From the IMG/VR virus record IMGVR_UViG_3300028840_001431, positions 1 through 62,650 of that record: 62,650 bases of DNA; one strand, written 5' to 3'. Shown piece by piece: positions 5,161 through 41,094 of this stretch. The DNA is from a virus. The translations under genes and the position numbers were made by a program. Position 1 is the first letter of the stretch. Each line of letters starts with the position of its first letter. The notes below the pieces were generated by a model that was not told the origin of the DNA, ran no database searches, and saw nothing but the letters and a program-made list of their open reading frames with translations.

Positions 5161-5180
5161 CAAAACTTTGGAGGTATGAA

Positions 5181-5663: not shown

Positions 5664-5944
5664 CCCGAAAAGCAAAGCCCCAAAAAGGAAGGAAGGTCGA
5701 TTTTTGGTCCTTTTGTACGGGGGCAGGAATGGGAATCTTCCTTGGACTACTCGCGGGTCAAGCCATCTATCAACCGGACACACCAAGGCCCGAGAGTTTT
5801 CGACCTGTCCAAGTGATGAGGCCTCTCCCTGATGGGAAATTTCAGGAAGGGCGAATGGGTCCGAATGGACGATTCATACCCGTTGGACCTCCAAGGGAGT
5901 TGACAGAGAAAGAAAAGGCCATGGTCCCGGCTGAATTGAGGTAA
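5660..5944 (+). CDS. Small membrane-anchored protein
   Basis: 94 residues, with an ATGA overlap with the preceding exported protein. After a basic N-terminus (TRKAKPQKGRK) a glycine-rich hydrophobic span covers residues 15-36 (FWSFCTGAGMGIFLGLLAGQAI). A proline- and glycine-rich tail follows. The basic N-terminus suggests an N-in topology with the tail in the periplasm. No known family recognised. Confidence 0.55.
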   Translation: MTRKAKPQKGRKVDFWSFCTGAGMGIFLGLLAGQAIYQPDTPRPESFRPVQVMRPLPDGKFQEGRMGPNGRFIPVGPPRELTEKEKAMVPAELR

Positions 5945-5947
5945 GGC

Positions 5948-8420: not shown

Positions 8421-10373
8421 ATGGCCGATGATCCCAAATCCGGCCTTGAGCAATTCTTGGCCAAACGCATAGAGGATGCCGCTGAAGAGCGAAAGCGTTT
8501 CCTTGAGTTGAAGTGGAAGGCCAACCTCAATGCCGTCACCAATCAGGATTCCCGCGTGACTCGTTGGAAATCCAAGGAGGGTGATGAGGAGTGGCAATCG
8601 ACCACGTATATCGGATTGACCAAGGCCAAGGTTTGGACCCTTTACGCTATTATCTTGGATACGGCCCTTCAGCGGGGTCAGGTTCCATTCATCCTTAAGC
8701 CGAGCCCTCATGAGAGGGAGCCATTGGGTGAGGCTGAGATCTCATCCCGTGACAAGAACATGAACAAAATGGGGGATAAGATCAGGGAACAATTCGCAGA
8801 TCGCCACTCTGATCGGGAATATATGAACAAGTTCCTATCCCTTGCCTATTACGGCATGACCTTTAGCAAATTCAACGTTGCCCCCGTTACCCGCCGAGGT
8901 TTTTCCCCTACCAATTACGCCGAACCCGGATTGCCCGAGGCTGAGGCTCAGGAATTCACACGTCATGAATATTACGAATATGAGGAACAGGTCCCCGGCT
9001 TTGAGTATCGCTCAGTTTGGGATATATGGTGGGATTTTGAGGCCGATAAATTTGAAGAGGGATGGGGTGTCATCGAAAGAGAGATGCTTTCCCTTTTTGA
9101 GTTGAATGCCAAGAAGGGAACGGTTGGGTATCTCGATGATCGCGTTGACGTTGTAATCAAAGAGCGTAAAGATAACAAGCTTTCAGATGAGGATTCTTTG
9201 AGGCCGGGATTAAGACACATCAAGACCCGGACCAAGGATATTGATGCTCGGGAGTATTGGGGCCGAGCCCCCGTTCAATTGGTTGAGGACTTTGAGAAAC
9301 ACGATATCGGGAAGAAGGGTGGGGGTGAATCTCAGATATCCTTAGAGGAATGGAACGAATCGGACGAAACCGGGGATGAGGTTGAGATCATTGCAACGAT
9401 GATCAACGGGAAATGTGTCCGATTCCTGAGAAGCCCTGACGGGTATCGACCTTATAAGAAATGTGTCCTTGAGAGTGAACTCGATTCGACAACAGGGACC
9501 GGGGTTGCTGATAACCTTGAGGACGTTCAGTATTCCTTGAATGGGATGGTTAGGGCCTTTGAGGATAACAAGAAACTTTCAGCCAACGTAATAACAGCCG
9601 TCAAGAAACGTTACTTTGCAAACCCAAAGCAGGGTGAGAAACTCCATCCGGGGATGCAAGTCGATATCTCCGATGAGTGTCCCGATGTACGTCACGCCAT
9701 CTTGCCTATCGTCATTCCCGATGTCGGTGAAACGCTGATCTCCGGGATTGAACGAATGGAACGATGGGGTGACACCGTTTCTCTCCTTCCGAACATCCTT
9801 CAAGGTTTCGTATTGCCCAAGCATACCCCGGACACGGCTTTTGAGATGAATCAACTCCAAGAGAATGCCGGGAAATATGTGGGTCAATGCATGAGGAACA
9901 TTGATGAGATGCTCATTGAGCCCGAGGTATGGGATATCTATGTTTACAACATGAGAGATCCCAACCGTGACGAGGAAGGAAACGTTCTCGACCAAACCCT
10001 AGAAGAGGCCAAGGGAAACTATGTGCCTCATGCCCAAGGATTCACGGGCTTTCAGAATAAGGTGATCCGAGGTCAGAAGATCAAGGAGATCCTTGCAATG
10101 GTGCTATCAGCCGAGCAATTGGCCATCGAAGCCAAGGTTAGGCCGCACCTTGAGGTAATCTATCGGTCTTATGACGCTGATCCTGATGAGTTCCTGAAAT
10201 CGCCTGAGGAGAAAGAGCAAGAGCTTCAGGATGAGGCGACACGTCAGGAAAAGGCAAAACAAGAGGCCATCCTTGCCCTGAAGGCCGAGAAAGACCTTGA
10301 AGACGCTAACGCTGAGAAGGACTTTCAACGGGACGTAATCAAGGAAGGAGTGAAGGCGGCGGTTAATCAATGA
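8421..10373 (+). CDS. Portal protein
   Basis: 650 residues. Size, position (before scaffold and capsid) and composition match portal proteins of podovirus-like phages with N4-type capsids. Residues 60-90 (STTYIGLTKAKVWTLYAIILD) hold an early conserved helix, and a clip/stem-like middle contains the repeated D-I-W-W-D aromatic cluster near residue 200. A long charged coiled C-terminus (QELQDEATRQEKAKQEAILALKAEKD) is typical of portal barrels or tails. As a dodecamer it would form the DNA entry vertex, bind terminase and anchor the neck. No signal peptide. The stop overlaps the next start as ATGA. Confidence 0.75.
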   Translation: MADDPKSGLEQFLAKRIEDAAEERKRFLELKWKANLNAVTNQDSRVTRWKSKEGDEEWQSTTYIGLTKAKVWTLYAIILDTALQRGQVPFILKPSPHEREPLGEAEISSRDKNMNKMGDKIREQFADRHSDREYMNKFLSLAYYGMTFSKFNVAPVTRRGFSPTNYAEPGLPEAEAQEFTRHEYYEYEEQVPGFEYRSVWDIWWDFEADKFEEGWGVIEREMLSLFELNAKKGTVGYLDDRVDVVIKERKDNKLSDEDSLRPGLRHIKTRTKDIDAREYWGRAPVQLVEDFEKHDIGKKGGGESQISLEEWNESDETGDEVEIIATMINGKCVRFLRSPDGYRPYKKCVLESELDSTTGTGVADNLEDVQYSLNGMVRAFEDNKKLSANVITAVKKRYFANPKQGEKLHPGMQVDISDECPDVRHAILPIVIPDVGETLISGIERMERWGDTVSLLPNILQGFVLPKHTPDTAFEMNQLQENAGKYVGQCMRNIDEMLIEPEVWDIYVYNMRDPNRDEEGNVLDQTLEEAKGNYVPHAQGFTGFQNKVIRGQKIKEILAMVLSAEQLAIEAKVRPHLEVIYRSYDADPDEFLKSPEEKEQELQDEATRQEKAKQEAILALKAEKDLEDANAEKDFQRDVIKEGVKAAVNQ

Positions 10374-11279: not shown

Positions 11280-11876
11280 ATGAACAAACGATTTGCAATT
11301 GTAGCGTTGACGGCATTGATGGTTTTCGTTTTTGCGGGAATGGCCTTGGCTGACCCTTTCACCGGAAGGCCTCACACTTGGAGAGGTGAGCAGATTTACC
11401 GGGGAGAGATGAAGTTCAGGGGTGATAACGCGGATCTCACTTTGGAATCCGGGTCCGAGATTACCCTGACCACGGCTCCCCGATATACGACCACAACCCT
11501 TACTTGGACTGCTGGCACGGGATACACGGTTCCCTCGACCGTAAAAACCGGGGCCGTCTATCAATTCGATATCTCTTCGGCCACAAGTTCAAGTGCCGGG
11601 GGCGATAATGGCATCATGGATGTCGGCACGGCAGGGGTGACAATTCATATTCCCACCCCAACCGCAGTTAATCATGATACGATCTTCGGGCTTCAGAAGA
11701 TCGACTCCGGGACAACGGACGCTATTCTCTACTGTGCGGGCCTTCCGATCTTTTGGGCTTCGTCCGGTACAACCAATGTGAGCAAGGAAATGGATGCCCA
11801 AGGGGATATCGTTTGGTTGCAACTTAATTACAATGGTGCGGTTAGTGTCTTTGCGGTCAACGAGTATATGCATTAA
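11280..11876 (+). CDS. Sec-exported beta-rich protein inside the head module
   Basis: 198 residues. AAAGGGAGGAATAAG lies before the ATG. The N-terminus (MNKRFAIVALTALMVFVFAG) ends in an ALA-D cleavage site, a clear signal peptidase I substrate. The mature part is rich in T, S and G with alternating strands (TTTLTWTAGTGYTVPS, GVTIHIPTPTAVN), as in fibre, spike or decoration domains. Its place between portal and scaffold genes would normally predict a cytoplasmically assembled virion protein, so the signal peptide is unexpected. Alternatives are a secreted accessory factor or a displayed adhesin. Confidence 0.65.
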   Translation: MNKRFAIVALTALMVFVFAGMALADPFTGRPHTWRGEQIYRGEMKFRGDNADLTLESGSEITLTTAPRYTTTTLTWTAGTGYTVPSTVKTGAVYQFDISSATSSSAGGDNGIMDVGTAGVTIHIPTPTAVNHDTIFGLQKIDSGTTDAILYCAGLPIFWASSGTTNVSKEMDAQGDIVWLQLNYNGAVSVFAVNEYMH

Positions 11877-11915
11877 TCCTTAGAGTTCTGAAATCCTAAA
11901 TACATATGTGAATTG
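11872..11915 (+). repeat. Intergenic 36-bp repeat half-sites
   Basis: ATTAATCC at 11872, CTGAAATCC at 11889 and GTGAATTGG at 11908, spaced 17 and 19 bases. The third merges with the TTGGAGGAG ribosome site of gene 11927. Confidence 0.4.
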
Positions 11916-11926
11916 GAGGAGTTGAG

Positions 11927-12982
11927 ATGGTCGATGAGAGTCAGGCCCTAGAGGCAACGGAAACCGAATCAGAAGATGTGAGCTTAGACGAAGGCGAATC
12001 CGTCTTTGATGATGCTTTCGATGAGGCCATAGGCGACAAACCCGATGAAGGATCTTCCGAAGAGAAATCCGAGGAGGATGAAGGGGATAAGGACAAATCC
12101 GAGGCCGAGGGTGAAGCTGAATCCGATGAGGCTGAGGCTGAGGATGAGTCTGAGGAGGACAAAGACGAATCTGAAGAAGATGAGGAGAAAGGTCAGGAAG
12201 ATGAAGACGACAAGGACAAGGATGAGGGTGACGAAGATCTGACCCCGGCTCAGAAGCGGGGAAAGATCCTGATCGAGTCCGAAAAAGGTGGGGTAGGCGA
12301 TGAAGAAGGGGATGAGGACCTTGAGGATGAGGGTTATTCCCCCGATGAAGGCCAACCACCCCCGATTGAAGCCATTGATGATCGAGTTGCCGGGGCTTAT
12401 ATCGGGATGCTTGATGTCGGAAAGCTTCCTGAGTCCCTTAAGGTTGGGGATGAAGTGATCAACCTTAAGGCGTATTATGAGGACAATCCTGAAGTTCCTG
12501 TCATTACAACGTTGATGGCCCGTCAGATCATTGGTCGGTTGGTTGATTCCGGTGTCCTGATGACGGGTGACGATGCCGCTGAAATGATGGAGGAAGTTTC
12601 TGATCGTGTCTATCGGTTAAGACTTACTCAAGAATGGCCGGATACCAATATGGAAGAGGTCATTGACAGTAAGGAATTTATCGATTGGGTACAAAACGAA
12701 GCTCCCGAGGAAACTCAGGCTCTTTTCAGATCCGATGACCCTGAGGATCATGTCTTAGGGTTCCGGGAGTATTTTGATAATTCCCCGGCCAAGAAAGGAT
12801 CGAAAGAGAAGGCCTCAAAGGCTGATGCTCAGGCCCGCAAGAGCAAGGCTGAGTTTGATGCCGTACACACTTCATCGGCTAGAAGGACCTCTAAGAAGGG
12901 TGGAGGAACCCCGGCGGTCGAGGAAGATTATGCTTCCGCTTTTTCGGACGCCGCTGATGCCGTGGAGAAGGAAGGGGTATGA
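11927..12982 (+). CDS. Acidic scaffolding-like protein
   Basis: 351 residues. Residues 15-110 are extremely acidic low-complexity sequence (runs such as EDESEEDKDESEEDEEKG), then a more ordered part (residues 145-285) and a lysine- and alanine-rich end. A charged, mostly helical or disordered protein encoded immediately upstream of the capsid gene fits an internal scaffold for procapsid assembly, as in N4-like and T7-like phages. Start supported by TTGGAGGAG upstream. Ends with an ATGA overlap. Confidence 0.65.
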   Translation: MVDESQALEATETESEDVSLDEGESVFDDAFDEAIGDKPDEGSSEEKSEEDEGDKDKSEAEGEAESDEAEAEDESEEDKDESEEDEEKGQEDEDDKDKDEGDEDLTPAQKRGKILIESEKGGVGDEEGDEDLEDEGYSPDEGQPPPIEAIDDRVAGAYIGMLDVGKLPESLKVGDEVINLKAYYEDNPEVPVITTLMARQIIGRLVDSGVLMTGDDAAEMMEEVSDRVYRLRLTQEWPDTNMEEVIDSKEFIDWVQNEAPEETQALFRSDDPEDHVLGFREYFDNSPAKKGSKEKASKADAQARKSKAEFDAVHTSSARRTSKKGGGTPAVEEDYASAFSDAADAVEKEGV

Positions 12983-13164
12983 ACCCTGATTCACCAACCG
13001 CTAAATTTGATGGAGAGTGGCCTGATATAGATGTCAACTATGACGTTGAAATCAGGTGTCCAGAGTGCGGGAAGCTCATAGGCAAAGGAGAATATTCCGA
13101 GTCAGGTCAGGAATTCCGTTGCCCTAAGTGCTTTCACATTTTTGCAGTTAAAAAAGCTAATTGA
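12979..13164 (+). CDS. Com-like zinc-ribbon protein
   Basis: 61 residues, ATGA overlap with the scaffold stop. CPECGK (28-33) and CPKCFH (49-54) make a compact C4 zinc ribbon of the type seen in Com-like translational regulators and other small phage proteins. Location between scaffold and capsid genes would suit a regulator of capsid translation, but this is inference. Confidence 0.6.
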   Translation: MNPDSPTAKFDGEWPDIDVNYDVEIRCPECGKLIGKGEYSESGQEFRCPKCFHIFAVKKAN

Positions 13165-13181
13165 TCAAACGTTACGTTTGA
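13165..13181 (+). promoter_or_regulatory. Perfect 7-3-7 palindrome before the capsid gene
   Basis: TCAAACG, TTA, CGTTTGA forms a perfect inverted repeat starting right after the stop of gene 12979. A second weak GGCC...GGCC stem and a CTTTT follow at 13190-13210. It may be an operator, an RNA-processing stem or part of a weak terminator ahead of the capsid message. Confidence 0.4.
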
Positions 13182-13242
13182 CCATGCCCGAGGCCCTGAG
13201 AGGCCCTTTTGGTCGGTAACATGATCCAGAAGGAGATCTCTC

Positions 13243-14265
13243 ATGGGAGAAACCATTAATACCTACGGGGACATTTCCCCGAGAACAGCGGCTTATGCGG
13301 CGGCTCGGTTGCTCATGCGGGGACAGCATGACATGATCACCGAGCGTTTTGGGCAATCCCGCCCGATTCCGAAACGTCACACGAAGAGCATCAAGTTTCG
13401 GAGATACGAGTCTCTCCCCCGTGCCACGGCCCCCTTGGCCGAAGGCATCCCGCCCAAAGGTCGGAAGCTCACCTATACCGATGTCACCGCGACACTTGAG
13501 CAGTACGGTGATTTCGTTGAGCTTACCGATGTCATCAAGGACACTCACGAAGACGATGTATTCAAGGAGTCGTTTGACCTCTGCGGGGAGCAAGCGGCTG
13601 AAACGGTTGAGGTTGTCCGTATTGCGGTAATGAAAGCGGGAACCAACGTCTTTTATGCCAACAATGCCGGATCTCGATCAGCTATTAATTCTCCGGGTGT
13701 CCGGGGTGACTTCCGAAGGATTTATCGTTCCTTCCGAAGGAACAAGGCCCGTCAGATATCCAAGATGGTCCGAGCTTCCGCGAAGATCTCCACCGAGCCC
13801 GTGAATGCGGCCTTCTTCGTATTGGGTCACACCGATTGTGATTCCGATATCCGAGGACTTGAAGGGTTCGTTCCGGTCGAGCAGTATTCCGATTCGACCA
13901 AGGCCCTTCCCACCGAAATCGGGAAGATGGATCAGTTCCGTTTTTGCCTGACGGCCCTGTTTGAGCCTTGGGAAGCGGCGGGTACGGCTGGTCAAACCTA
14001 TCTGAGTGGTGGGGAGATTGTCACGTCCGACACGGCGGCTGATGTCTATCCGCTGATTGTCCTTGCAAAGAATGCCTATGGCATCGTTCCCTTGCAGGGT
14101 CAGAACGCCGTGAAACCCGCCGTGAGGAACCCCGATCAGCCTGCCGTGGGTGATGAGCTTGGGCAAAAGGGATTCGTTTCGTGGAAAATGTACCAAACAG
14201 CCGTAATCTTGAATCAATTGTGGATGGCCCGCCTTGAGGTGGCCGCTACAGCCGTCCCGAGTTAA
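13243..14265 (+). CDS. Major capsid protein, N4-gp56 family
   Basis: 340 residues. The N-terminus (TINTYGDISPRTAAYAAARLL), the SIKFRRYESLP segment (49-59), APLAEGIPPKGRKLTYTDVTATLEQYGDF and the AAETVEVVRIAVMKAGTNVFYAN segment are the recognisable core of the N4 gp56-type HK97-fold capsid proteins. It forms the icosahedral head in the cytoplasm and has no signal peptide. AAGGAGA precedes the ATG. Parts of its N-terminal 82 residues and its final 21 residues recur in the Tat-signal protein at 3854. Confidence 0.9.
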   Translation: MGETINTYGDISPRTAAYAAARLLMRGQHDMITERFGQSRPIPKRHTKSIKFRRYESLPRATAPLAEGIPPKGRKLTYTDVTATLEQYGDFVELTDVIKDTHEDDVFKESFDLCGEQAAETVEVVRIAVMKAGTNVFYANNAGSRSAINSPGVRGDFRRIYRSFRRNKARQISKMVRASAKISTEPVNAAFFVLGHTDCDSDIRGLEGFVPVEQYSDSTKALPTEIGKMDQFRFCLTALFEPWEAAGTAGQTYLSGGEIVTSDTAADVYPLIVLAKNAYGIVPLQGQNAVKPAVRNPDQPAVGDELGQKGFVSWKMYQTAVILNQLWMARLEVAATAVPS

Positions 14266-14282
14266 TCAATAGCCTATCCAAC

Positions 14283-14320
14283 GGGGCCGGGGGGTGAGGC
14301 CCGAAAAGCTGATCCCCCCG
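14283..14320 (+). terminator. Possible stem-loop after the capsid gene
   Basis: A CGGGGGG near 14289 pairs with CCCCCCG near 14314 around a loop of about 19 bases that contains a GGCC/GCCC pairing option. No T run follows, so it may be an RNA stabilising or processing stem rather than a terminator. Confidence 0.35.
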
Positions 14321-14374
14321 AATATCAACTTAACGAAGTTGCTTGGCCGATGGGTTGAGCAAAGGAGAATGGTC

Positions 14375-15103
14375 ATGCGTAGAGTAGCAGGAACGTGGAA
14401 CGGAACCGCCGCCGATGTCTATCTTTGCATCGGATTTGTCCCGGATTGGGTCAAGATCGTCAACATTGAAGGAACCGCCCAAGAGCAAATCGAATGGTCC
14501 CGAATGATGCTTCGTTCCGATGGAACGATGATCGAAGGTGTCCAGACGACCGGGGATTATGTTGCTACCGAATTGACAGCCGGGAACGGAATCTTGCCGT
14601 ATTACGGTGGGGATCTTTTGACCTCTTCAAACCAAACCTCGACTACATACGGGGAGGGAGTCTATCTCGGTTGGGATAACAAGGATTACCGTTATCTCAC
14701 GAATTCGGCACTCGGGATTGTGGGTGATGCCGCCGATGCCGATATCACCACTTGGACCCTTGGGAGTTCGGCCAATAGGACCGGGAATTTCAACTCCGAT
14801 GTGACCGGAACTTATATCGGGCCGGGGTCGAAGATCCTGATCCAAAGGCCTCAGGGTGCGGCAAACAGCGGGGAAGTCGAGGAACATGCCATTAACACCC
14901 TAGCGGCGGGTGCGGGAGTGTCGGCCAATGAGGTGACTCTTTCGGCCTCGATGGCTTCCGGTAACGTTCGTTTCATTGGTGGGAAATATTCCATGGCTCC
15001 CATTGCCTTGAACAAGACCACCTTGGACGGTTTCCGAGTTTCCAACACAACTGTCAACGTAAACGATGAGATCATCATGTTTGAGGCCGGAACTTACAAC
15101 TAA
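14375..15103 (+). CDS. Putative head decoration or structural protein
   Basis: 242 residues. I chose the ATG at 14375, six bases after AAAGGAG; a longer frame from 14294 would read through the stem-loop region. The product is beta-rich and glycine/threonine-rich (TWNGTAADVYLCIGFVPDWVK, VTGTYIGPGSKILIQ, VSANEVTLSASMASGNVRF) with no signal peptide. Proteins of this type directly after the capsid gene are usually decoration or vertex proteins. No specific family recognised. Confidence 0.55.
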   Translation: MRRVAGTWNGTAADVYLCIGFVPDWVKIVNIEGTAQEQIEWSRMMLRSDGTMIEGVQTTGDYVATELTAGNGILPYYGGDLLTSSNQTSTTYGEGVYLGWDNKDYRYLTNSALGIVGDAADADITTWTLGSSANRTGNFNSDVTGTYIGPGSKILIQRPQGAANSGEVEEHAINTLAAGAGVSANEVTLSASMASGNVRFIGGKYSMAPIALNKTTLDGFRVSNTTVNVNDEIIMFEAGTYN

Positions 15104-15121
15104 ACCTTTTTGAATGATTCC

Positions 15122-15153
15122 GGGGACGGGGGAGAAATTCCCCCTCCCCTTTT
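15122..15153 (+). terminator. Rho-independent terminator after the head operon
   Basis: GGGGGA pairs perfectly with TCCCCC around a 5-base GAAAT loop, extended by a GGGG/CCCC outer stem and followed by TTTT. The ribosome site of the next gene begins right after it. Confidence 0.7.
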
Positions 15154-15166
15154 GAGGAGAGAAGCT

Positions 15167-16027
15167 ATGACGACCGAAAACTTACCCTTAGAGGTCATGG
15201 AATTCATTGAGGCTTTTGCCTCGATTCAAAATGAGGCTGTTCTTAGGCAGTTTGAGCATACCAATCGTGGCAGGATTCAGGATCTCCCGTCATGTTGGAT
15301 GAAATGGAATGAAACGTGGCAAAGGGTGACAGGAACCCCGTATTTCAAGGCGATCACCGAGACTCCAATAAAATCTAGCCTTGCCGGGGGTAGCCGAGTT
15401 GATCCGAAGTCCCGAAATTATAAAACCCTTATTAGATTCAAGCAGATCGATTGGAATAAAACCCTTGAGCAGTACGGGAGAAGGAAGAAGGGGATTGTCT
15501 ATGCCCTCAGGGGCATACCCGTTGAAGACGACCAATACCGTTCGATCATCCACAAAACATCCCAAAACCAGTTGATCAAGCTGGTTGGTGAGGAAATATC
15601 GGAAAGGATCATCGAAGATTCTAAGGGAACCAATTTCCAAGGGTCAATAACCCACCTAGGCAAAGGGAAGGATAAGACTCCGTTGGATATTGAGGTTGAA
15701 TGTTGGGGATATTGGGAGGTTCTATTTGCTCCCGCCTCGGGCAAGGATGACTTCAGAGAGGTTGTCCTTCAATGGGAAGGGCAATGCCTTCAGATCCAAA
15801 GGAACGTCCCGGTTATCCTCCCCGGCTATTACCTAGAGGTGAATGATAATGCCACTTATCCCGTTTACACGCAAACTCCCGAGCAATCCCGAAAGATCAC
15901 CGGATACGTCCAGTTTTTCCCTTGCACGGTCATGAGAGAGGCGACTGAGAAGGAATACTTCATTATGAAGAAGCAAGGGGACAGGATCACTCGGGAAGCC
16001 CGAAGGAGGGAAGAAGAGGCGGCATAA
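15167..16027 (+). CDS. Hypothetical neck/tail-region protein
   Basis: 286 residues. I chose the ATG at 15167, which follows GAGGAGAGAAGC; an in-frame start at 15110 would put the terminator stem inside the coding region. The sequence has mixed strands and helices (KTLIRFKQIDWNKTLEQYG, DIEVECWGYWEVLFAP) and ends in a highly charged helix (RITREARRREEEAA). Its stop is immediately followed by the next start. It may belong to the neck, but I recognise no family. Confidence 0.55.
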   Translation: MTTENLPLEVMEFIEAFASIQNEAVLRQFEHTNRGRIQDLPSCWMKWNETWQRVTGTPYFKAITETPIKSSLAGGSRVDPKSRNYKTLIRFKQIDWNKTLEQYGRRKKGIVYALRGIPVEDDQYRSIIHKTSQNQLIKLVGEEISERIIEDSKGTNFQGSITHLGKGKDKTPLDIEVECWGYWEVLFAPASGKDDFREVVLQWEGQCLQIQRNVPVILPGYYLEVNDNATYPVYTQTPEQSRKITGYVQFFPCTVMREATEKEYFIMKKQGDRITREARRREEEAA

Positions 16028-17053
16028 ATGAGCCAAACACCAATATCAAACAAAGCCTTGATTCAGAATTGCAAGGACTTTGTTCAGGATGATCCAACGG
16101 GCCAAACTCTTGAGCCCATGATCAAGGTTGCCCTCAAGACTGCGATTCGTGAGATCAACGAAATCGATGAGCAAGAGCCCCTTGGATGGAACCGCCAATC
16201 TTATGATGAGCTTTTTACGAAGGCTTATTGTGAGATTTCCGCTATCACGGCGGCGGCTCCCGGAGTCATTACCGCTGAATCAGTCCATGAGGATCTTGAG
16301 GATGAGCACGGCCTTGTAAGTGGGGAAATTGTTTGGATTGATGGAATCTACGGGATGGATCGTCTAAACCGCCGCTTATATCGGGTGGTAAAAGTTGACG
16401 ACGATCAGTTCTCATTGCTTCAATTGGATGGGACAAATGCAATAAACACTGATGGATATGATGCTTATACATCCGGTGGGCATGTTTATTCATGCGGCAT
16501 GGTCTTAACGGCTTCCGATATAGAGCCTGATACCGGGGACGCTGAGGACAGGTGGAAAATCAAGAGGGTGTTTGATATCCAGTTCGATGGATATCCTGCT
16601 GATCCGATCACCGATGGAGAGGTCAAGGGGGATCAGAAATGGCTCAGGCCGGGAGGTAGGCCAAAGCGTTGGCAATATAAGCGGTTTTCCAATGCGGGCC
16701 TTGACGCCGGATTTGAGCACATCATTATGTGGTATCCTCCATGTAATGATCGATATAATGTTTCAATCGATATCGAGAAGGCATACCCGGATATTGCAAG
16801 CTGGACTTCAGGCAAATACCCGAATCTTCCTCCCGAGGTCCATGATTGCATATGGCATCGGGCTCTTCACACCTTGGCCACGAATGCCGAAAAGGCAAAG
16901 CGTGAGTCAGGTGATAGAATGATGGGTAAGATTGAAGTCCTCTATAAGGCCCATTGGGCTGAGCAAGTCATCAAGGATGACAGGTTCATTAAGAACTTCA
17001 GTCGTCAGTTAATTGGGGATCAGCCTAGGTCATCCTCGGGGTGGTCAGCTTAG
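16028..17053 (+). CDS. Probable neck/adaptor protein with FCCH-like insert
   Basis: 341 residues. The N-terminal part (LEPMIKVALKTAIREINEIDEQ) resembles the helical start of phage head-tail adaptors. Residues 70-155 (VHEDLEDEHGLVSGEIVWIDGIYGMDRLNRRLYRVV, then DDQFSLLQLDGTNAINTDGY) resemble the small beta domain related to the E1-enzyme FCCH fold that occurs in phage structural proteins. The end is helical and basic. It follows the previous stop directly. No signal peptide. Confidence 0.55.
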   Translation: MSQTPISNKALIQNCKDFVQDDPTGQTLEPMIKVALKTAIREINEIDEQEPLGWNRQSYDELFTKAYCEISAITAAAPGVITAESVHEDLEDEHGLVSGEIVWIDGIYGMDRLNRRLYRVVKVDDDQFSLLQLDGTNAINTDGYDAYTSGGHVYSCGMVLTASDIEPDTGDAEDRWKIKRVFDIQFDGYPADPITDGEVKGDQKWLRPGGRPKRWQYKRFSNAGLDAGFEHIIMWYPPCNDRYNVSIDIEKAYPDIASWTSGKYPNLPPEVHDCIWHRALHTLATNAEKAKRESGDRMMGKIEVLYKAHWAEQVIKDDRFIKNFSRQLIGDQPRSSSGWSA

Positions 17054-17094
17054 TCCCGTCCCTAAAACTCTTGACTGAGATTTAGGAGTATGAT

Positions 17095-17805
17095 ATGAAA
17101 GCCCTCATCTCTTCGTTTTGTGTCCTCCTTATCATGCTTGGGGGCCTCGATCTTGCCTTCGGCGGCTCCCAAGCCACCTCCTCTTTAACAGCCGCGACAA
17201 TTGAAACCCGAGCAAGACGTGACCTCGATGAGGATACGGCCCAATATTGGAATCAGGATGACATGATCCAATGGATTGATGAGGCCGTTAGGGAGATCGT
17301 TTATACCACCAAATGTCTTGAATCCGGGACCTCTCTTATCGTTATCAAAGATAGCGTTTTCACTTATGATATTACCGGGAATTGGCTAACCGTTGAGACT
17401 GTCACTTATGATAGCGGGGTTACTGATGACCGGGATTATCTCTTCACCCTCAAAAGAATCAATCTGAGATCCCTCGGGCATAGCAAGGAAACGGGAAACC
17501 CGAAATACTTTGCTGTTTGGAATGATGATCTCATCATTGAGCCCGTCCCCGGAGCAGATCAATCAGGAACGACTCTCTATCTTTATCGAACCGATCTTCC
17601 TTCGGGCGTAACCCTCATCACAAGCCCAATCGAAACGCCCACCTATTTTGACACAGCAATCCTTGATTATGTGAAGGCCAAGGCCCTTTATAAGGATAGC
17701 AAGGAAGTCCGGGGTGACTACCATATGTCACGGTTCAAAAGCCGGATTGCTTCATGGATGATTCATATGTTGCCGGGAGGGTTGTCCCTGACCGAAGAGG
17801 ATTAA
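17095..17805 (+). CDS. Head-tail adaptor-like protein with an N-terminal Sec signal
   Basis: 236 residues. TTAGGAG precedes the ATG. Residues 1-23 (MKALISSFCVLLIMLGGLDL, then AFG) look like a signal peptide with cleavage near AFG-G. The mature part (TIETRARRDLDEDTAQYWN, DDMIQWIDEAVREIVYTTKC, FDTAILDYVKAKALYKDS) matches phage gp6-type adaptor proteins, which normally bind the portal in the cytoplasm. A signal peptide on such a protein is very unusual. Either the start region is a fusion, or the neck assembles on or across the inner membrane. Confidence 0.65.
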   Translation: MKALISSFCVLLIMLGGLDLAFGGSQATSSLTAATIETRARRDLDEDTAQYWNQDDMIQWIDEAVREIVYTTKCLESGTSLIVIKDSVFTYDITGNWLTVETVTYDSGVTDDRDYLFTLKRINLRSLGHSKETGNPKYFAVWNDDLIIEPVPGADQSGTTLYLYRTDLPSGVTLITSPIETPTYFDTAILDYVKAKALYKDSKEVRGDYHMSRFKSRIASWMIHMLPGGLSLTEED

Positions 17806-17806
17806 A

Positions 17807-20449
17807 ATGATACGCCTCAGATATGCCATTCTTGCAGTCCTAGCGGGATTCTTGGCTTTTGCTTATAACAATGTGTCATTAGGCCAAGATGACGATGAGC
17901 AGAAATGGGCAATAACTGACAAGACAAAGACCCCGAAAGAACGCCATCGTGCAACTTCATTCGCTCTTGCCGGGAAGCTTGACAGGACAAGCCCGTTTGT
18001 TGCTTTGGATGGGAGCAATATCAAGGAAGCCGTCAATATGCGGCGACCCGCCCCCGGCTTGCCCGTTGGTTGGAAGGCTCGGGGAGGATGCACTCCTTAT
18101 AATACCACCGCAATAGCATCAGCCGAAGTTAAGGGCCTTGCTCAGCTAATCGTTACCGAAACAGGCGTTGAGAAGTTTTACGCTCAATGCAATGATGACT
18201 TTTATGTTTCCTCAGGCACTCCCCCTGATACCGTTACCACTTTCGGGACAAAGCTTCTTGACCTTGCCTCGGATGCGGGGCCAATGCATTGGGGAAAGAT
18301 TGACGATGAGATCACTTGTGCCGCCTCAGGCCAAACCCCTTGGGCTACCTCGGGGGGCTCAACCTACCCTGACTCCTTCCTGACTCAGCATACCACCGGA
18401 ACCACGGCTTACAATGATGGAAGCATGTTGGTTGCCGATGAATTGGACACCACTTCAATCGGTATGCCTAACCATTCAGGAACCTCGGAATATGCCTATC
18501 TAGGGTTTCACAGAAGGCTTGACGGGGCCGAGCTTCAGTTAATCGCCGGAACCACCAACATAATGGCCGCTAAGACGGGTGTTTCAGCCTATACGTCTTC
18601 AGGGTGGACCTCATGCACGAACATCGTTGACGGTACGGCTGATGGCTCAGGCGTAACGACTCTCTATGAATCCGGCTACATTGCATGGACAAACCCCGCA
18701 AACATGATCCCATATGTTTTGCCGGGGACGAAGAACCATCTCTTTTGGTATCGATTCCGCGTAACCGCCGATGTGACCGACAATGTTCAGGTCAAGAGGA
18801 TCTTGGTTGCCGATATCTGCGAAGAGGTTACTCACTTATGGTCAGGACTCTATGAGATCGTTCTTGGAGCCCTAGAATCTCATACGACCGGATTTTACGA
18901 TTGGACCCCTGAGGTCACAGATGGAAGTGATGTCGAATACATGGATGCCGATATCACGAATTCTCAGGCCATCTATCTCGGGTTTGCTCAGCCTGTCATG
19001 GGCTTCTTCATGGAAATTACCTCTGACTCGGGGAACGTGGGGACAGCTACGGGATGGAGGGTCTATTATTGGGACGGGGATGAATCTGATTGGTCTGAGA
19101 TAACCGGAGTGACCAACGATAGCACGGGTGAGGGATACCCGCTTCAGCATACCGGGGTCATGCAATGGGACACCAACGGAATCAGGCCTGATCGAAGGCA
19201 ACTCGCGGGGCGGTTGACTCCGTTCTATTGGTACAAATGGGAGCCGATTGTAAGTCTTGCCTCAGAAACGATCAGCCTTTATGAGATCGGTGGGATAGTT
19301 GATCCGAATGGGGTCCGGGATATCAGCAAGTACGAAGGGGTGATGCACTACAATGGAAGGGCCATGTATTGGCCGGGGCAAGACTATAAGAACGGGATGG
19401 ATTACTCTCAAGAGTATGAACCCCAAATCATAAACGGCCCCAAAGCCGGAAGCACGGGCGGGATTTTCGGTCCCGGTCGAGTTCACCTAGCCCTTGAATA
19501 TTCCTCGTATGGAATCGTGTTTACAAAGGACCCCTATCGAACCTATGTGCTTCAGGGCAAGGTTCCGGGTGAATTTGATGAGCTTTGCATATCAACAAAG
19601 GTTGGGGCTATTGGGCCTCACGCGGCTTGCGTTGTCGAGGATGGGATTCAAGCCTTTGCCAAAACCCGAATTGTTCATGCTGTCTTTTTCGTGGCTCAGG
19701 ATGGTCTATATTTGACCGATGGGATGACAGTCACGAAGATCAGTCAACCGATATCGGATTATTGGGACACCGGGGCAACCCCTTACATCCAACCCGAGTA
19801 CGCCTATAAATGCTATGTTTGGTATAATTTTATTGACAAGACGGTTCACATCGGGGCTCCCGTTAATTTTGAAAACGATGATACGCCTCAGACGACTTGC
19901 AACGTTGAACTCATTTACAGTCCGATTGGGGAGGAATTCTATGACAGGTACGTGAGGAATAGTCCTGCCGCTTGCGGCCTCAGTTTAATCGGCAATGATG
20001 ACCAGAGGTTGACATACATTGGTGATTACTCAGGGACGGTACATCGGCTCGATACCGGAAAAAACGACAATAATAATGTCATCACCCACCATATCAAGAC
20101 CGCCGATTTTAACCCATTAGAAGGCAAGCTTGAAGATGCCTTAAATCATAAATTCAAACTTCGTGCGGTCAAGATCAAGGCGAAAGCTCAGACGGTGGGA
20201 GTAGCTGAAATATTGGTTTACCCGGACGATGCCGATTCGGGTGTGACCCCTCCCGGCGGGACTATTTCCTTAGTAAATTCAGGGTACAAGCTTGCTCAAG
20301 GTAGGACCTTGATGGGGAGAGATATTACATACCTGATGGAGACTAATTCCATAAGATTCAGAAGCGGAGTTTCGACCGCTGAACTAGATACTGTGATGGA
20401 ACTCTATGGTTATACAGTCGATTATTACGAGGTCAGGCCGACTCACTAG
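17807..20449 (+). CDS. Tail nozzle-like protein with an N-terminal Sec signal
   Basis: 880 residues. The first residues (MIRLRYAILAVLAGFLAFAY, then NNVSLG-Q) fit a signal peptide. The body resembles large podovirus nozzle or tubular proteins with a beta-propeller: IKEAVNMRRPAPGLPVGWKARGG-type start (residues 72-95), and a later segment with GIVFTKDPYRTYVLQG, FFVAQDGLYLTDGMTVTKIS. It would form the distal part of the short tail. Its end overlaps the next gene by 44 bases. The combination of nozzle and signal peptide repeats the pattern of the adaptor gene upstream. Confidence 0.6.
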   Translation: MIRLRYAILAVLAGFLAFAYNNVSLGQDDDEQKWAITDKTKTPKERHRATSFALAGKLDRTSPFVALDGSNIKEAVNMRRPAPGLPVGWKARGGCTPYNTTAIASAEVKGLAQLIVTETGVEKFYAQCNDDFYVSSGTPPDTVTTFGTKLLDLASDAGPMHWGKIDDEITCAASGQTPWATSGGSTYPDSFLTQHTTGTTAYNDGSMLVADELDTTSIGMPNHSGTSEYAYLGFHRRLDGAELQLIAGTTNIMAAKTGVSAYTSSGWTSCTNIVDGTADGSGVTTLYESGYIAWTNPANMIPYVLPGTKNHLFWYRFRVTADVTDNVQVKRILVADICEEVTHLWSGLYEIVLGALESHTTGFYDWTPEVTDGSDVEYMDADITNSQAIYLGFAQPVMGFFMEITSDSGNVGTATGWRVYYWDGDESDWSEITGVTNDSTGEGYPLQHTGVMQWDTNGIRPDRRQLAGRLTPFYWYKWEPIVSLASETISLYEIGGIVDPNGVRDISKYEGVMHYNGRAMYWPGQDYKNGMDYSQEYEPQIINGPKAGSTGGIFGPGRVHLALEYSSYGIVFTKDPYRTYVLQGKVPGEFDELCISTKVGAIGPHAACVVEDGIQAFAKTRIVHAVFFVAQDGLYLTDGMTVTKISQPISDYWDTGATPYIQPEYAYKCYVWYNFIDKTVHIGAPVNFENDDTPQTTCNVELIYSPIGEEFYDRYVRNSPAACGLSLIGNDDQRLTYIGDYSGTVHRLDTGKNDNNNVITHHIKTADFNPLEGKLEDALNHKFKLRAVKIKAKAQTVGVAEILVYPDDADSGVTPPGGTISLVNSGYKLAQGRTLMGRDITYLMETNSIRFRSGVSTAELDTVMELYGYTVDYYEVRPTH

Positions 20450-21884
20450 CATATGCCTTGTGCTCTTCTTCCTCATTGCGGGGGTGTCTGACGGGAAGAT
20501 CATTCGTCCGGGCTCGGGTGAGGAATATGAGACTTTCACCGAGAGGATCAGAAAGACCCACGAATCGGATATCAAGGCTAGGTTCCCGAAAGATGAAATT
20601 CGACCTGATACTGTGCATGGGGTCAAGGAGAGTCTTGATGCATTTAGGAAAGCATCGAAAGATAAAAAGCCTTGGGCTCATAACGACTTTAACGAGATGG
20701 AGGAAATTGCTTGGCCCCATTTCGATATCAGTTTCCCAAATTGGGACTATCCCGACATGCCTTGGTGGCCGGGGTTTGATCCATGGCCAACGGGGCCGTA
20801 TGGGCCTCAGCATCCTGACGATATCCTTGACGTTCCGGGTTGGTATTTACACGGTTGTTGGATTTCATGTTTTCCGGGGATTATCGAGTGCGTTGATGGA
20901 GAAGCCGAATGTGTTATCACGACTTCACAAATCATATGTGGGATTGATGTAGTCGGACAGGTTCAGGATTGGAGGTTAGAGGGGAACAACCTTATCATCG
21001 TTCCGGCCATCTCGGCGGTCGATAATAGCGTTATCGAAGTCGAGGTTTGTACCTGTCCCCTTGATTGGCAATTAAAAGGCGGTTGTTGTGATGCTCGGAT
21101 CATTATCAACTGTGAGGAAGAAGAGGAAGATATATGCCTAGGGGCCACTCCAACAATCGTTGCAGATGCCACGACCGAGGCGGCTTATGGTGATATTTGC
21201 TCAGGTGGAAACACGTCTGGAACCTTCAGCGTTCAGAGTGGAGGCCTCGCGGTTCCACCATATGAGTGGACTCTCACCTGTGCGGGGTCAAATTTCACTC
21301 TCGATGGTCAGGCTTGCCCCGCCACGGCTGAGACTAGTTCTGATGGGTCCTCGGTCACGGTTGCTTCATCAGGGGCATGTGGAGGGGCCACTTTAAGGGT
21401 CGAGGATGCTTGTGGTGAAACCGATACATATACGATCATGTGCTCAGATTCGGGGTCTTGGGTCACGATTTATAGCACGGCCCTTGGAGATCCTGAGTCA
21501 GACGCATGTAATATGCCGGGAGAATCAACTCATATCGTGGCGGGTCAAATGCGGCTTGATGCCGGATACCGAAGGCAATACCATAATTACATCACGGTTG
21601 GGGCCGGGGCTGTCCAATGCGTCGGATCAGGGTGCGGAAGCCCACCCCTCAATGATTGCCAGTATGATGGATCTCCGGGACGTTGTTGCGGTGGTGGGTG
21701 TCCCTCATGGGGTTGCTATGATTGCCTTTGCGGAAACGGGACCCTCGTAGGGTGTGCGGCCCTTACTTTCAGGATTTGTGATATGTGCGGTTGTGATGAT
21801 TGTTGGCATATAACGGGTGGGTATTATCAATGTGCCTGTAACTGCTCAGTTGACTTCGTTTATCAGGAATGGCAATGCCCATAA
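20406..21884 (+). CDS. Exported protein with 36 cysteines
   Basis: 492 residues. The N-terminus has R-S-G-R-L then TSICLVLFFLIAG, a signal peptide or anchor. I count 37 cysteines, 36 of them beyond the signal, clustered at residues 135-275 and in the last 110 (for example PGRCCGGGCPSWGCYDCLCG). The middle has immunoglobulin-like strands (VPPYEWTLTCAGSNFTL, SDGSSVTVASSGACGGATLRVED). This density implies disulfide bonds or metal clusters; disulfides would need the periplasm. It overlaps both neighbours, so it belongs to the tail operon. It could be a tail tip or adhesion protein. Confidence 0.6.
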   Translation: MVIQSIITRSGRLTSICLVLFFLIAGVSDGKIIRPGSGEEYETFTERIRKTHESDIKARFPKDEIRPDTVHGVKESLDAFRKASKDKKPWAHNDFNEMEEIAWPHFDISFPNWDYPDMPWWPGFDPWPTGPYGPQHPDDILDVPGWYLHGCWISCFPGIIECVDGEAECVITTSQIICGIDVVGQVQDWRLEGNNLIIVPAISAVDNSVIEVEVCTCPLDWQLKGGCCDARIIINCEEEEEDICLGATPTIVADATTEAAYGDICSGGNTSGTFSVQSGGLAVPPYEWTLTCAGSNFTLDGQACPATAETSSDGSSVTVASSGACGGATLRVEDACGETDTYTIMCSDSGSWVTIYSTALGDPESDACNMPGESTHIVAGQMRLDAGYRRQYHNYITVGAGAVQCVGSGCGSPPLNDCQYDGSPGRCCGGGCPSWGCYDCLCGNGTLVGCAALTFRICDMCGCDDCWHITGGYYQCACNCSVDFVYQEWQCP

Positions 21885-22213
21885 TCTTACTTTTGCTGAT
21901 ATTCCCAAGCTTTGCAAACGCGGCCCCGTTTGATATTGGGGAAGTTGTGAGGAGGGACAGGACCGGAAGGCTCCCCGAGTACAGGCAGATTACTGTAAAA
22001 GTCGAAAAACGCAATGATTGGAGAAAACGAAGATATGCCAAAATAATGGCCGATATCCAAGAGGAGAGGAGAAAGAAGGAATCAGAATGGGCATTGTGGA
22101 AGCTCGGGAACATATTGGACAAGATGAAGCCGTTCTTGATTTCCGTGGACTCAGATCTAAATCCTACCCTTGTGTTAAACCCAAAATATATGCAGTTCAG
22201 GGCCAAGGGCTGA
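21869..22213 (+). CDS. Small exported charged protein
   Basis: 114 residues, overlapping the previous gene by 16 bases. MAMPIILLLLIFPSFANA-A is a canonical signal peptide with an ANA-A cleavage site. The mature part is a highly charged helix (EKRNDWRKRRYAKIMADIQE, RRKKESEWALWKL). After its TGA the same frame stays open to the TGA ending at 22319. Confidence 0.6.
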   Translation: MAMPIILLLLIFPSFANAAPFDIGEVVRRDRTGRLPEYRQITVKVEKRNDWRKRRYAKIMADIQEERRKKESEWALWKLGNILDKMKPFLISVDSDLNPTLVLNPKYMQFRAKG

Positions 22214-22301
22214 GGGGACAAAAAGAAGCCGGAGTTCCCGGATGACCCTGACCAAATGACAGAGGAAGAACTTCAAGCATGGCTAGAAGGGGAGGATGAA
22301 G

Positions 22302-22925
22302 ATGAGCATATACACTGAGAATCTCTTGAGAGGTATGCAATCAGGGTACGGTGGGGGTAGGGGATATAACCCTTACCAGATTCACGCGGCTGTACTTGGT
22401 GAGGCTTCAGGGAAACTCGCGGCCCGGAGATGGAAAGATCAGTTTGAGGAGGGCCGAAGGCAGTTTCAAAAGAGCTATGAGCTTAAGTCTCGGGACCTCG
22501 ATGAGATCATCAAAGAGCGGGAAAGACAATATCAGCTTGACTTGAAAGAGCTTACCCAAAGACAGAACGAATTCAAGACGAATGTAGCGGCAAACCTCTT
22601 TCAGAGTGGAGCCGGGACCCCTTCCGAGCGTATTGATTGGATGAGTGCCTTCGGATTCTCCGATGAGCCACGGGCAACCGTTCCGGGGGCCGGGAATATC
22701 TATGGATCTGAGGCGGTTGATTATAAGATAGGTGAGGGTCAGCCTCTCTCGGCGGGTGGAACTGGCGGGGGGAATCTTGCCGACAAGATCAGGAATATTG
22801 CCGCCCTTGAAAGCATGGCGACTCAGGCCGCTTACTCTAAGGGGTTTGGGAGTGGCATAGGCCCCGCCGCTCAGCGTCATGGGGAACTCATGAATAAAGT
22901 CAGGCAACTGACAAGAACCCTCTAA
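22302..22925 (+). CDS. Putative internal virion or tail-associated protein
   Basis: 207 residues. I chose the ATG at 22302, six bases after GGGGAGG; an ATG six bases earlier is too close to it. A glycine-rich start (GYGGGRGYNP) precedes a long coiled-coil (residues 45-95, FEEGRRQFQKSYELKSRDLD, IKERERQYQLDLKELTQRQ) and a glycine-rich end. Its location before a second coiled protein and the giant protein is like the internal or ejection proteins of podoviruses. No signal peptide. Confidence 0.5.
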   Translation: MSIYTENLLRGMQSGYGGGRGYNPYQIHAAVLGEASGKLAARRWKDQFEEGRRQFQKSYELKSRDLDEIIKERERQYQLDLKELTQRQNEFKTNVAANLFQSGAGTPSERIDWMSAFGFSDEPRATVPGAGNIYGSEAVDYKIGEGQPLSAGGTGGGNLADKIRNIAALESMATQAAYSKGFGSGIGPAAQRHGELMNKVRQLTRTL

Positions 22926-22937: not shown

Positions 22938-24698
22938 ATGGCAACTTCAGCTTATACGCGGCTTTTTGGATCTCAGGGGTTGGAGCCCACCTCTGAGGAT
23001 TTGTACGCTCAGGATAAGGCCGAGGCCGCAACTCTGATCGGAAAGATCAAGTCTCTTCAACAAGCGGCCAAGGCTCCCTATGTGCCATCAACAAGCCCCT
23101 TCCCTTCTGAGCAGAGATTATCGAAGTCAAACTATGCTCAGCGGCAATATGAGGCCAACCGCCGGATAGCTGATGCCATCAGTATGCTTGCCGATGTGGA
23201 GGGTAGGACAACAGAATTTGAGGCCGGATTAGCGGCCCAAGAGGTTCAGCAAAAGCTCGACAAAGAGCAAGAAGAGATCGAGCAGATGAAAACCTCCCGA
23301 GACATCCTCAAGAGCTATGAGGACACCGGGGGACGGGCAACGGGTGGTTTTGTTCCTACCATGAAGAAGGATGGGACCATTGGCTTGAAGTGGGCAAAAC
23401 CCACGAAAAGGAAGCTCACCGTTGAGGAGGAGTCCATCAAGAAGGGCTTGCAGGATGATTATAAATTTTACCGGGATCAGATCAGGGCAATCCAAGCCAA
23501 CGATGAAGAAGCAATGCAAAAGGTCCTGAACATGAGGATACCTGAGCAAACTCAGGAAAACGTGATGAGAGGGCTTAGGGAACAGCATGGGGACAATGAG
23601 GAAGCCATCCAGCAAGGGTATGTTGATTATCTGAAGCAACAAGTAATGATTCCACTTAAGAGGGGGATGCTCGATACTCAGAGATCCATGGCTCAATTCA
23701 ATCAATCTCTTGGTGGTGGTCAGGCAGGATTTATGCAGGGAGCCCGGAAAGGTGAAGGCCCGATATATGTTGAGCCGGGATACAGGACCGAAAGCGGTGA
23801 GATCGAAGGGCTAAGGGCAACCAACGTGCCTTATTCTGATATCATTGCTGAAGCCATTGCAAGGGAGCAAGCGGGGCAACCCACGGCAAGAGAGGCCGAA
23901 ACCCCCGCCGCACCTCAGGGCCGAGGGGGAGCCGCCGAGGAAGCTTTTCAGATCCTATTGGATTCTCCGAAGAGGGGAACCTCTGATTGGAGAAAGGCCG
24001 CTGAGGAATTCATTAGCCGATTCGGTGATGACCCCGCCGCCGCTGATATGATTGCCGCCCTTGATATGGAACTTAGGAACATTCCGAGTGATGGACCCGT
24101 CAGGACCGACATTGCAAATTGGCAGAGGCCATCAATTCAGGAAGGCCTTAGGAGTGGAGTGAGGGCGATAGCCGCCGCATTGGAAGGGATGCCTACGGGT
24201 GAAACTAGGGTTCCGGGGGCTGAACATTTGACCATTCCCCGAGCAGATAGAGGGGACGCCGGGAGATCCGCTTTCGCCGCTGAAGAGGCCCCGAGGGGTA
24301 GGGCTCCCCAAGATGTACCGAGAAGAAGGACTCCGGCCACTCAGCCGATCACCGGGAGATCAATCGGTGAGGTCTTGGTTGATCAGTACGAACAGCACAG
24401 GAAAAAAAGGATGGATGACCTAGTTGCTAACAGAGGTTCAGCCATTCGGGCCATAAAGGAGGGCTTGGGAAGGATTACCGATTATCAGGAAGAGCGTCTT
24501 GACAACATTGCAAAGCAATTAGATTCGGAGTTAGAGGGGGGATTGTCAATCGATATGCCAACGGGGGATGTGGTGAATGCTTTGAAAAAAGCGATACCGG
24601 AACTCAAGGACGATACACCCACCTTGGAAGCTCTTGCCAAATACCTCAAATCTTTGAATCCGGGGGCGGGCTTTCCTCAAAAGCGAAGGACTTTCTAA
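22938..24698 (+). CDS. Putative internal/ejected virion protein
   Basis: 586 residues. A predicted coiled region (residues 60-120, EFEAGLAAQEVQQKLDKEQE), a charged helical middle (residues 150-260) and an alanine/arginine-rich, probably disordered second half (APQGRGGAAEE, RRRTPATQPITGRSIGE). AAGGAGT precedes the ATG. The stop is followed immediately by the start of the giant polyvalent gene, so the two are likely made together and may be packaged together. No enzymatic motif recognised. Confidence 0.5.
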   Translation: MATSAYTRLFGSQGLEPTSEDLYAQDKAEAATLIGKIKSLQQAAKAPYVPSTSPFPSEQRLSKSNYAQRQYEANRRIADAISMLADVEGRTTEFEAGLAAQEVQQKLDKEQEEIEQMKTSRDILKSYEDTGGRATGGFVPTMKKDGTIGLKWAKPTKRKLTVEEESIKKGLQDDYKFYRDQIRAIQANDEEAMQKVLNMRIPEQTQENVMRGLREQHGDNEEAIQQGYVDYLKQQVMIPLKRGMLDTQRSMAQFNQSLGGGQAGFMQGARKGEGPIYVEPGYRTESGEIEGLRATNVPYSDIIAEAIAREQAGQPTAREAETPAAPQGRGGAAEEAFQILLDSPKRGTSDWRKAAEEFISRFGDDPAAADMIAALDMELRNIPSDGPVRTDIANWQRPSIQEGLRSGVRAIAAALEGMPTGETRVPGAEHLTIPRADRGDAGRSAFAAEEAPRGRAPQDVPRRRTPATQPITGRSIGEVLVDQYEQHRKKRMDDLVANRGSAIRAIKEGLGRITDYQEERLDNIAKQLDSELEGGLSIDMPTGDVVNALKKAIPELKDDTPTLEALAKYLKSLNPGAGFPQKRRTF

Positions 24699-40260: not shown

Positions 40261-41094
40261 ATGGGAAAACGAATCTTGATGCTTTTGGTGGTTTTTGCGT
40301 TTACCCTTTTGAACGGGGACGCATTTGCTAAGGTGAGAACCTATGAGATGTTTCTGAATACGGGAATCATCCAAGGGGAAGGAGAACCATTCAACGTTGA
40401 TGCCGGAACAACTGTGACAGGCGTAACCAATGTCATTGTTGGTGGTTCTGGCATGAATCGTCAAGCGGGCTCCAAAACCATTCCATGGGAAGATGACGCC
40501 GGAAAGGTTTGGGTGGTCGAGCTTGCCTCAGCCGTTGTGAGTGAACATGCTCAAGGCCAAGGGGGTGATAATTCAGGTACGACCTTCAGCCTTTGGGCTC
40601 TTGGTGCGATCAACGGGAACTTTGACGCGGCTCGGCGGCAATACCTGTTTTTTGAGCAGGACCTAGGAGCAACTTCCCCTTATGTTACATCTTGGGAGCC
40701 GATACCGGGATGTGATTATCAATTTCGGTTTGAATCCGTTGGAGTAACAGACTTTGATAGGGCAAAGTTTGTGCTCAAGACAGGATTCCCCGCAAATTTC
40801 AAGCTTAGCGGGGCCTTTGTTCTGGATGAGTCTCAATATGTAATCAATGCTAATTCGGGAGTTAGTACCCTGACCATACCTGATGGGGCGTGGAAGATGT
40901 TCATTGGAGTGAAGGGGAACGATGTAGCTTGGTCCCTTGATCCTGATGAAAATGTCATCACATCAAGCGGTATGGTTTTGAATGATGGAGATTATTTGAC
41001 TCTCGATGATTATAACCAAATTAACAACTTTTCATTCGCCTTAGAGGATGGCGGCTCGGGTGCTACCGTTTGGGCGGTTGCCTTGAGTAAGTAG
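40261..41094 (+). CDS. Sec-exported beta-rich protein, possible fibre or spike
   Basis: 277 residues. AAGAGGAGAG precedes the ATG. MGKRILMLLVVFAFTLLNGD then AFA-K is a clear signal peptide. The mature part alternates strands and turns (AGTTVTGVTNVIVGGSG, FEQDLGATSPYVTSWEPIPG, SGVSTLTIPDGAWKMFIGVKG) like phage fibre or spike domains. It lies after the ejected-protein block, where fibres are commonly encoded, and before a LamG-type protein with its own signal. Confidence 0.6.
   Translation: MGKRILMLLVVFAFTLLNGDAFAKVRTYEMFLNTGIIQGEGEPFNVDAGTTVTGVTNVIVGGSGMNRQAGSKTIPWEDDAGKVWVVELASAVVSEHAQGQGGDNSGTTFSLWALGAINGNFDAARRQYLFFEQDLGATSPYVTSWEPIPGCDYQFRFESVGVTDFDRAKFVLKTGFPANFKLSGAFVLDESQYVINANSGVSTLTIPDGAWKMFIGVKGNDVAWSLDPDENVITSSGMVLNDGDYLTLDDYNQINNFSFALEDGGSGATVWAVALSK

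Follow-up and report, generated by a model that had tools for sequence, protein, structure and literature searches.

Conserved Sec-type signals on the second neck ring, nozzle candidate and fibre-like proteins of an uncultured short-tailed phage suggest head and tail production on opposite sides of the inner membrane

The uncultured virus record IMGVR_UViG_3300028840_001431, analysed here over its whole length of 62.65 kb (referred to as the window), contains a short-tailed structural operon in which genes for tail and fibre-like proteins carry predicted Sec-type signal peptides. In textbook tailed-phage morphogenesis, everything takes place in the cytoplasm until lysis. That second neck ring (AD2), nozzle candidate and fibres bear conserved export signals suggests that this phage makes its head on one side of the inner membrane and its tail on the other, which is not known for tailed phages. 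We assign a probability of about 0.6 to a two-compartment assembly in which heads would be built in the cytoplasm, tail parts would be exported via Sec, and the two would join at lysis. If true, tail assembly is possible in another cell compartment than head assembly, virion completion is coupled to rupture of the inner membrane, and tail proteins are open to disulfide bonding and periplasmic glycosylation. Where in the cell the phage parts meet would then be open to direct tests, through N-terminal proteomics and tomography. Genes are named by their start positions; those with signal or signal-like N-termini are (^, cut site):

11280..11876, plus strand: F1, encoding a fibre-like protein and located between the portal and scaffold genes; signal peptide MNKRFAIVALTALMVFVFAGMALA^DPF
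17095..17805, plus strand: AD2, second adaptor ring (PF24175); Sec-type signal peptide
17095..17163, plus strand: AD2 signal peptide MKALISSFCVLLIMLGGLDLAFG^GS, ending at the aligned cut site
17807..20449, plus strand: candidate nozzle/stabilisation-type tail protein, 880 aa (position, weak profile); signal peptide MIRLRYAILAVLAGFLAFA...
20406..21884, plus strand: cysteine-rich (37 Cys) receptor-binding-type tail protein; signal peptide; homologues in relatives' contigs L024, L032 and L111
21869..22213, plus strand: small protein, signal-like N-terminus without positive charge, a weaker case (from sequence; rejected by the rule set)
40261..41094, plus strand: fibre-like protein; signal peptide MGKRILMLLVVFAFTLLNGDAFA^K
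41108..42013, plus strand: Laminin_G_3/ConA-like lectin fibre-type protein (PF13385, E 1e-13); signal peptide MKKLFALTSIFLSLLFCGFAFG^A

Signals were called with our own rule set (positive n-region, 10-residue core and -3/-1 motif) and not with SignalP. This caller recognised 7/7 textbook Escherichia coli signals, and was positive on 3/296 non-redundant control head or neck proteins and on 0.0-4.9% of shuffled sequences of unchanged composition. A preliminary description of the window had claimed signals on seven genes. Six of these (11280, 17095, 17807, 20406, 40261 and 41108) were confirmed: each has a positively charged n-region followed by a strongly hydrophobic core and a cleavage motif of the small-x-small type, and each signal starts at an ATG supported by a ribosome-binding site (RBS). 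For the seventh, 21869 (MAMPIILLLLIFPSFANA^APF), the claim holds in part, as core and cleavage motif are present but the positive charge is missing and the caller rejects it. The n-region, the core and the small residues at -3 and -1 are those of a Sec/signal peptidase I signal; a lipobox of the lipoprotein (signal peptidase II) type was not seen in AD2, which has no Cys at +1 of its mature start. By caller and sequence, no signal was found on portal, scaffold, major capsid protein (MCP), 14294, 15110, 16028, 22296, 22938 or the 5182-aa open reading frame. Given the caller control, the low rates among controls and shuffles, and the same genes being positive in independent relatives, the predicted Sec-type signals on the tail and fibre-like genes of the window are real and not due to chance. 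The possibility that they stem from misassigned start codons or from N-termini that are hydrophobic by chance is effectively refuted: although the caller is rule-based and 21869 fails it, the RBS-supported ATGs, the lack of alternative starts, the rates given above and the deep conservation described below speak against an artefact.

The family of relatives was found through an MCP alignment (77 loci), and scanning with the 16028 family added more; single-protein scans with portal or nozzle gave no relatives, and the MCP scan gave mostly unrelated modules. All counts refer to non-redundant sequences (<90% identity). Of the AD2 proteins, 18/20 were signal-positive in contigs that also encode AD1, the first adaptor-fold protein, and 0/31 in contigs without the AD1 family. 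The nozzle family was positive in 9/11 cases and the F1 family in 7/7. The preliminary description had named absence of the signals from close relatives as the outcome that would speak against it, and the opposite was found. It had also proposed a count of signal-positive structural genes against a background; by our caller, the background of control proteins lies far below the exported families. Its statement that portal, scaffold and capsid carry no signal extends to their homologues (0/43, 0/60 and 0/61, respectively). The 14294 family gave 2/51 weak calls, and the only positive among 64 members of the 15110 family was a displaced paralogue in contig L035 with a start resembling that of twin-arginine translocation (Tat) substrates. 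Among 11 relatives, cultured or complete, none of the 92 structural genes had a signal. A signal-positive fibre-like gene between portal and scaffold occurs in 25/49 clade contigs versus 0/18 isolate, cultured or cellular relatives. When cellular genomes were scanned with adaptor and MCP, no copy of the exported type integrated in a host was found, and in all five adaptor-like matches among 395 genomes of the Desulfobacula phylum the adaptor lacks a signal.

The clearest case is AD2 (17095). The SU10_adaptor domain PF24175 matches residues 32-219 of this protein (E 4e-15); the match starts right behind the signal, which has therefore been added to the N-terminus of a known neck protein. The AD2 profile also matches 8jov_2 and 26fb_T, the former with E 2e-4 when built from the exported set alone; a match to 8jov_2 at E 2.6e-31 (A8 profile) was discarded as inflated by signal-less adaptors mixed into the profile. 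At the aligned cut site, -1 is A, G or S in 17/18 sequences, -3 is small or aliphatic in 17/18 and -2 is aromatic in 15/18. The register is an AxA-like site followed by ^G[ST], always directly before the point where the mature adaptor starts, with predicted mature N-termini such as GSQATSSLTAATIETR and GTQTTSTTTV..., and the mature start lies at about the position of the initiator Met in signal-less AD2 proteins. The n-, h- and c-regions are kept in all lineages, with signal segments of ~19-34 residues that are mostly 10-45% identical, and the mature adaptors of independent signal-positive relatives are only 22-53% identical. Among 27 exported adaptors and nozzles, none showed an RBS-backed start downstream of the signal and ahead of the domain from which a cytoplasmic form could be made. 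In L029 (14668-16524), an exported adaptor is fused to FG-GAP repeats.

These N-termini could be read in two other ways. They might keep the proteins on the inner membrane and form a tail platform on its periplasmic face, where heads dock before lysis. Cleavage is a prediction, and an n/h segment would work equally well as an anchor; a periplasmic tail would moreover be out of reach of a cytoplasmic head unless the membrane opens. As the -3/-1 small-residue rule and the fixed register ahead of the mature adaptor are expected for cleavage and not for anchoring, we consider this unlikely. Alternatively, the proteins might stay in the cytoplasm and carry uncleaved, membrane-active helices at neck and nozzle for DNA delivery. 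Podophage tails and ejection proteins have to get through membranes, a task in which a hydrophobic arm could be of help; however, strong hydrophobic starts with Sec-type n-regions are normally recognised by the signal recognition particle/Sec route, the cleavage motifs are conserved, and the signals also occur on fibres and on the lectin-type protein, which makes this reading improbable. A third option, that the exported forms serve at the cell surface in superinfection block or as decoys while virion copies are encoded elsewhere, has very little probability. It is consistent with the periplasmic and outer-membrane phage proteins known for superinfection exclusion, but the signal-bearing copies sit at the canonical operon position, nearly all AD2 proteins of AD1-encoding contigs bear signals, and a second AD2 (signal-less) or nozzle copy was not found within the window.

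The remaining proteins of the operon are signal-less. The order is portal (8421), scaffold (11927), capsid (13243), 14294, 15110, 16028, 17095, 17807, 20406, 21869, the internal-type proteins and the DarB-like protein:

8421..10373, plus strand: portal protein (phrog_332/phrog_1216, weak SU10_portal match)
11927..12982, plus strand: acidic scaffold-like protein
13243..14265, plus strand: MCP, N4-gp56 type (PF25209, phrog_1357)
14294..15103, plus strand: conserved post-MCP gene, decoration-like by position only, with homologues in L003/L019 and others; its real start is probably further downstream
15110..16027, plus strand: conserved head-region protein
16028..17053, plus strand: AD1, first protein with the portal-adaptor fold, into which an E1_FCCH-like beta domain is inserted (AlphaFold2 (AF2) model)
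22296..22925, plus strand: ejection/internal-type protein that closes the exported block; the L024 homologue likewise follows the signal-positive block and lacks a signal
22938..24698, plus strand: internal-type protein (from sequence)
24699..40247, plus strand: DarB-like protein, 5182 aa, with LPD1, methyltransferase-like and SNF2 helicase domains (Pfam)

The AF2 model of AD1 (predicted local distance difference test score, pLDDT, 81) matches the adaptors of cyanophage A4, KHP30, GP4 and SU10 in a VIA search (Z 10.2-11.9), so by its model AD1 has the portal-adaptor fold. The inserted beta domain (~residues 64-157) is close to the FCCH domain of E1 ubiquitin-activating enzyme (Z 8.7, 28% identity over 80 residues). 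None of the 17 non-redundant AD1 homologues carries a signal. In the cultured Burkholderia phage JC1, gp51 and gp52, homologues of AD2 and AD1, are present in CsCl-purified virions, as is the DarB-like gp69 of 4515 aa (PMC9144972); by this homology and the gene positions, AD1 and AD2 of the window are probably virion proteins. As AD1 is a signal-less adaptor-fold protein, AD2 bears a signal and both families are in JC1 virions, the predicted export boundary falls between the two neck rings. The earlier proposal of heads inside and exported neck, tail and fibre parts is thus upheld in the comparative set as regards the split, but not for all neck parts. The split can be refined, as the proteins packaged in the head and ejected (22296, 22938 and the giant DarB-like protein, which is presumably packaged in the head) are also signal-less.

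The exported block is contiguous in each sufficiently long contig: adaptor or adaptors and nozzle are followed by usually 1-4 further genes and then by signal-less internal proteins. In L032 and its near-copies L033 and L111, one gene within the block, a multi-transmembrane ligase, was not called. The nozzle candidate 17807 follows the adaptor and has a weak C-terminal profile match to the Y3 'stabilization protein'. In L102 (12108-16622), an exported nozzle of 1504 aa has three Laminin_G_3 matches. The first 44 bases of 20406 are shared with the 3' end of 17807, and the 20406 homologues (L024:17714, L032:8983 and L111:8535) are all signal-positive with 5-6% Cys. Members of this family have 19-37 cysteines, a composition that would suit an oxidising compartment, and a swappable C-terminus; the products of L032:8983-10221 and L111:8535-9779, both cysteine-rich and exported, are 92% identical over ~315 residues and have unrelated C-termini, which by analogy would be a replacement of a receptor-binding-type domain. 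Cysteine enrichment as a general trait of the exported proteins was unsupported for AD2, nozzle and F1, and only the 20406 type is rich in Cys.

On the MCP tree the exported label requires ~5 changes, compared to 1-2 on the tree of the AD2 domain, so that the exported form of AD2 seems to travel between capsid lineages as one module. The ~5 changes do not support the idea that the signal arose just once on the capsid tree. Since the fibre-like gene is exported more widely than the neck, fibre export may have come first and neck export later. Between portal and scaffold, L035 encodes two proteins (5111-5548 and 5824-6216) with Tat-like starts, NRREFIK and DRRTFIK, and the latter matches PF10518 just below its cut-off (E 2e-4).

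In the two-compartment assembly, portal, scaffold, capsid, AD1 and the ejected internal proteins would be made in the cytoplasm, where the heads would also be packaged with DNA. AD2, the nozzle, the cysteine-rich receptor-binding protein and the fibre-like proteins would be exported via SecYEG, trimmed by signal peptidase, and folded in the periplasm, with disulfides, to give either a separate tail or components of one; in some relatives, glycans would perhaps be added there. Filled heads and tails would meet only at lysis, when the inner membrane is opened by the holin. From the signals we infer that the proteins are translocated and cleaved, in which compartment the tail assembles and that it joins the head at lysis; tail assembly in the periplasm, raised in the preliminary description, remains a prediction of the same kind. 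We give slightly better than even odds to the wider statement that in this lineage the head is a cytoplasmic product, the fibres, the nozzle and the distal part of the neck are built in the periplasm, and the virion is finished only after a breach of the inner membrane, with the periplasmic glycan ligase of some relatives perhaps modifying the exported tail.

The ligase candidates are multi-transmembrane genes of the Wzy_C type in structural operons, beside exported fibre or tail genes (L032:7307-8518, L036:6490-7608, L036:7578-8714 and L102:3763-4890, the last with a TPR neighbour); L036:6490 is under the Pfam cut-off. L035:6898-7980 is a further candidate with 10 predicted transmembrane segments and no Pfam match. 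The active site of the O-antigen ligase (Wzy_C) is periplasmic, and the place of these genes next to exported ones speaks for the two-compartment assembly. These ligases could decorate the exported tail proteins, or could instead alter the host polysaccharide.

Several points weigh against the proposed two-compartment assembly. The signals were called from sequence by a rule set, not by SignalP. The AD1-encoding contigs L046 and L110 have a signal-less AD2 and most relatives export fibre-like genes only, so that neck export is not essential to the body plan. The identity of the nozzle is weak (AF2 model with pLDDT 47, too poor for use; hhalign probability 64%), and AD2 and nozzle are themselves not cysteine-rich, which limits the disulfide rationale to 20406. 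Finally, in a host with a single membrane or an unusual envelope, where export and lysis would function as well, the tail proteins would be released outside or into the wall space and join heads after the cell bursts. The signal lengths fit Gram-negative hosts, however, the small membrane genes of the window include one lipoprotein and one small single-transmembrane coiled-coil protein resembling spanins, and the nearest cultured relatives by MCP infect Gram-negative gammaproteobacteria; such a host therefore has a low probability in our view.

Elsewhere in the window, a partial capsid-like protein lies upstream of the portal (3854-4462; 42% identity to MCP residues 26-80), and a similar partial gene is present in L028/L029 (L029:4510-5037). 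Two more small signal-bearing proteins (5181-5663 and 59468-59959) lie outside the structural block.

By gene content, we assign the window phage to the SU10/Bcep22-like short-tailed Caudoviricetes. As in tailed phages, a portal and an HK97-type MCP lie within one structural operon, together with portal adaptors (AD2 by PF24175, AD1 by fold) and a nozzle, the latter less firmly assigned by position and C-terminal motif. It departs from what is usual, in a respect that is not taxonomic, in the Sec-type export signals of AD2, nozzle, F1 and further tail genes. Bcep22-like podophages (Lessievirus: BcepIL02, JC1) share two adjacent adaptor-type neck proteins, a DarB-like giant virion protein and a size of ~62 kb, but their AD2 has no Sec signal, the order of the adaptor genes is reversed, and in BcepIL02 signals occur on 0/14 complete structural coding sequences checked. 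The kuravirus SU10 has the PF24175 adaptor family and the adaptor-nozzle-fibre organisation (adaptor gp11, nozzle gp17), but it has one adaptor, and export signals are not described in the parts of the tail description that were compared (PMC9509320). In the portal-tail complex of GP4 (PDB 8jov), chain G is the fold match of AD1 and chain 2 the profile match of AD2.

Tailed phages do export individual non-structural proteins, such as signal-anchor-release (SAR) endolysins, spanins, T4 Spackle and T5 Llp, but none of these is a neck, nozzle or other core part of the virion. No report of exported neck or tail proteins of tailed phages was found in the open-access literature, which was the scope of the search. 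We are not aware of export in GP4, nor of any tailed phage whose neck and nozzle proteins are exported. Filamentous phages do assemble virion proteins with Sec signals (pIII, pVIII) at or beyond the inner membrane, but these phages have single-stranded DNA and no capsid or tail, are extruded without lysis and show no homology to the window; among the window proteins run against Pfam and PHROGs there was no match to Inovirus pI, pIV or pXI, for which no dedicated search was made. The proposed route fits neither the known morphogenesis of tailed phages nor that of filamentous phages.
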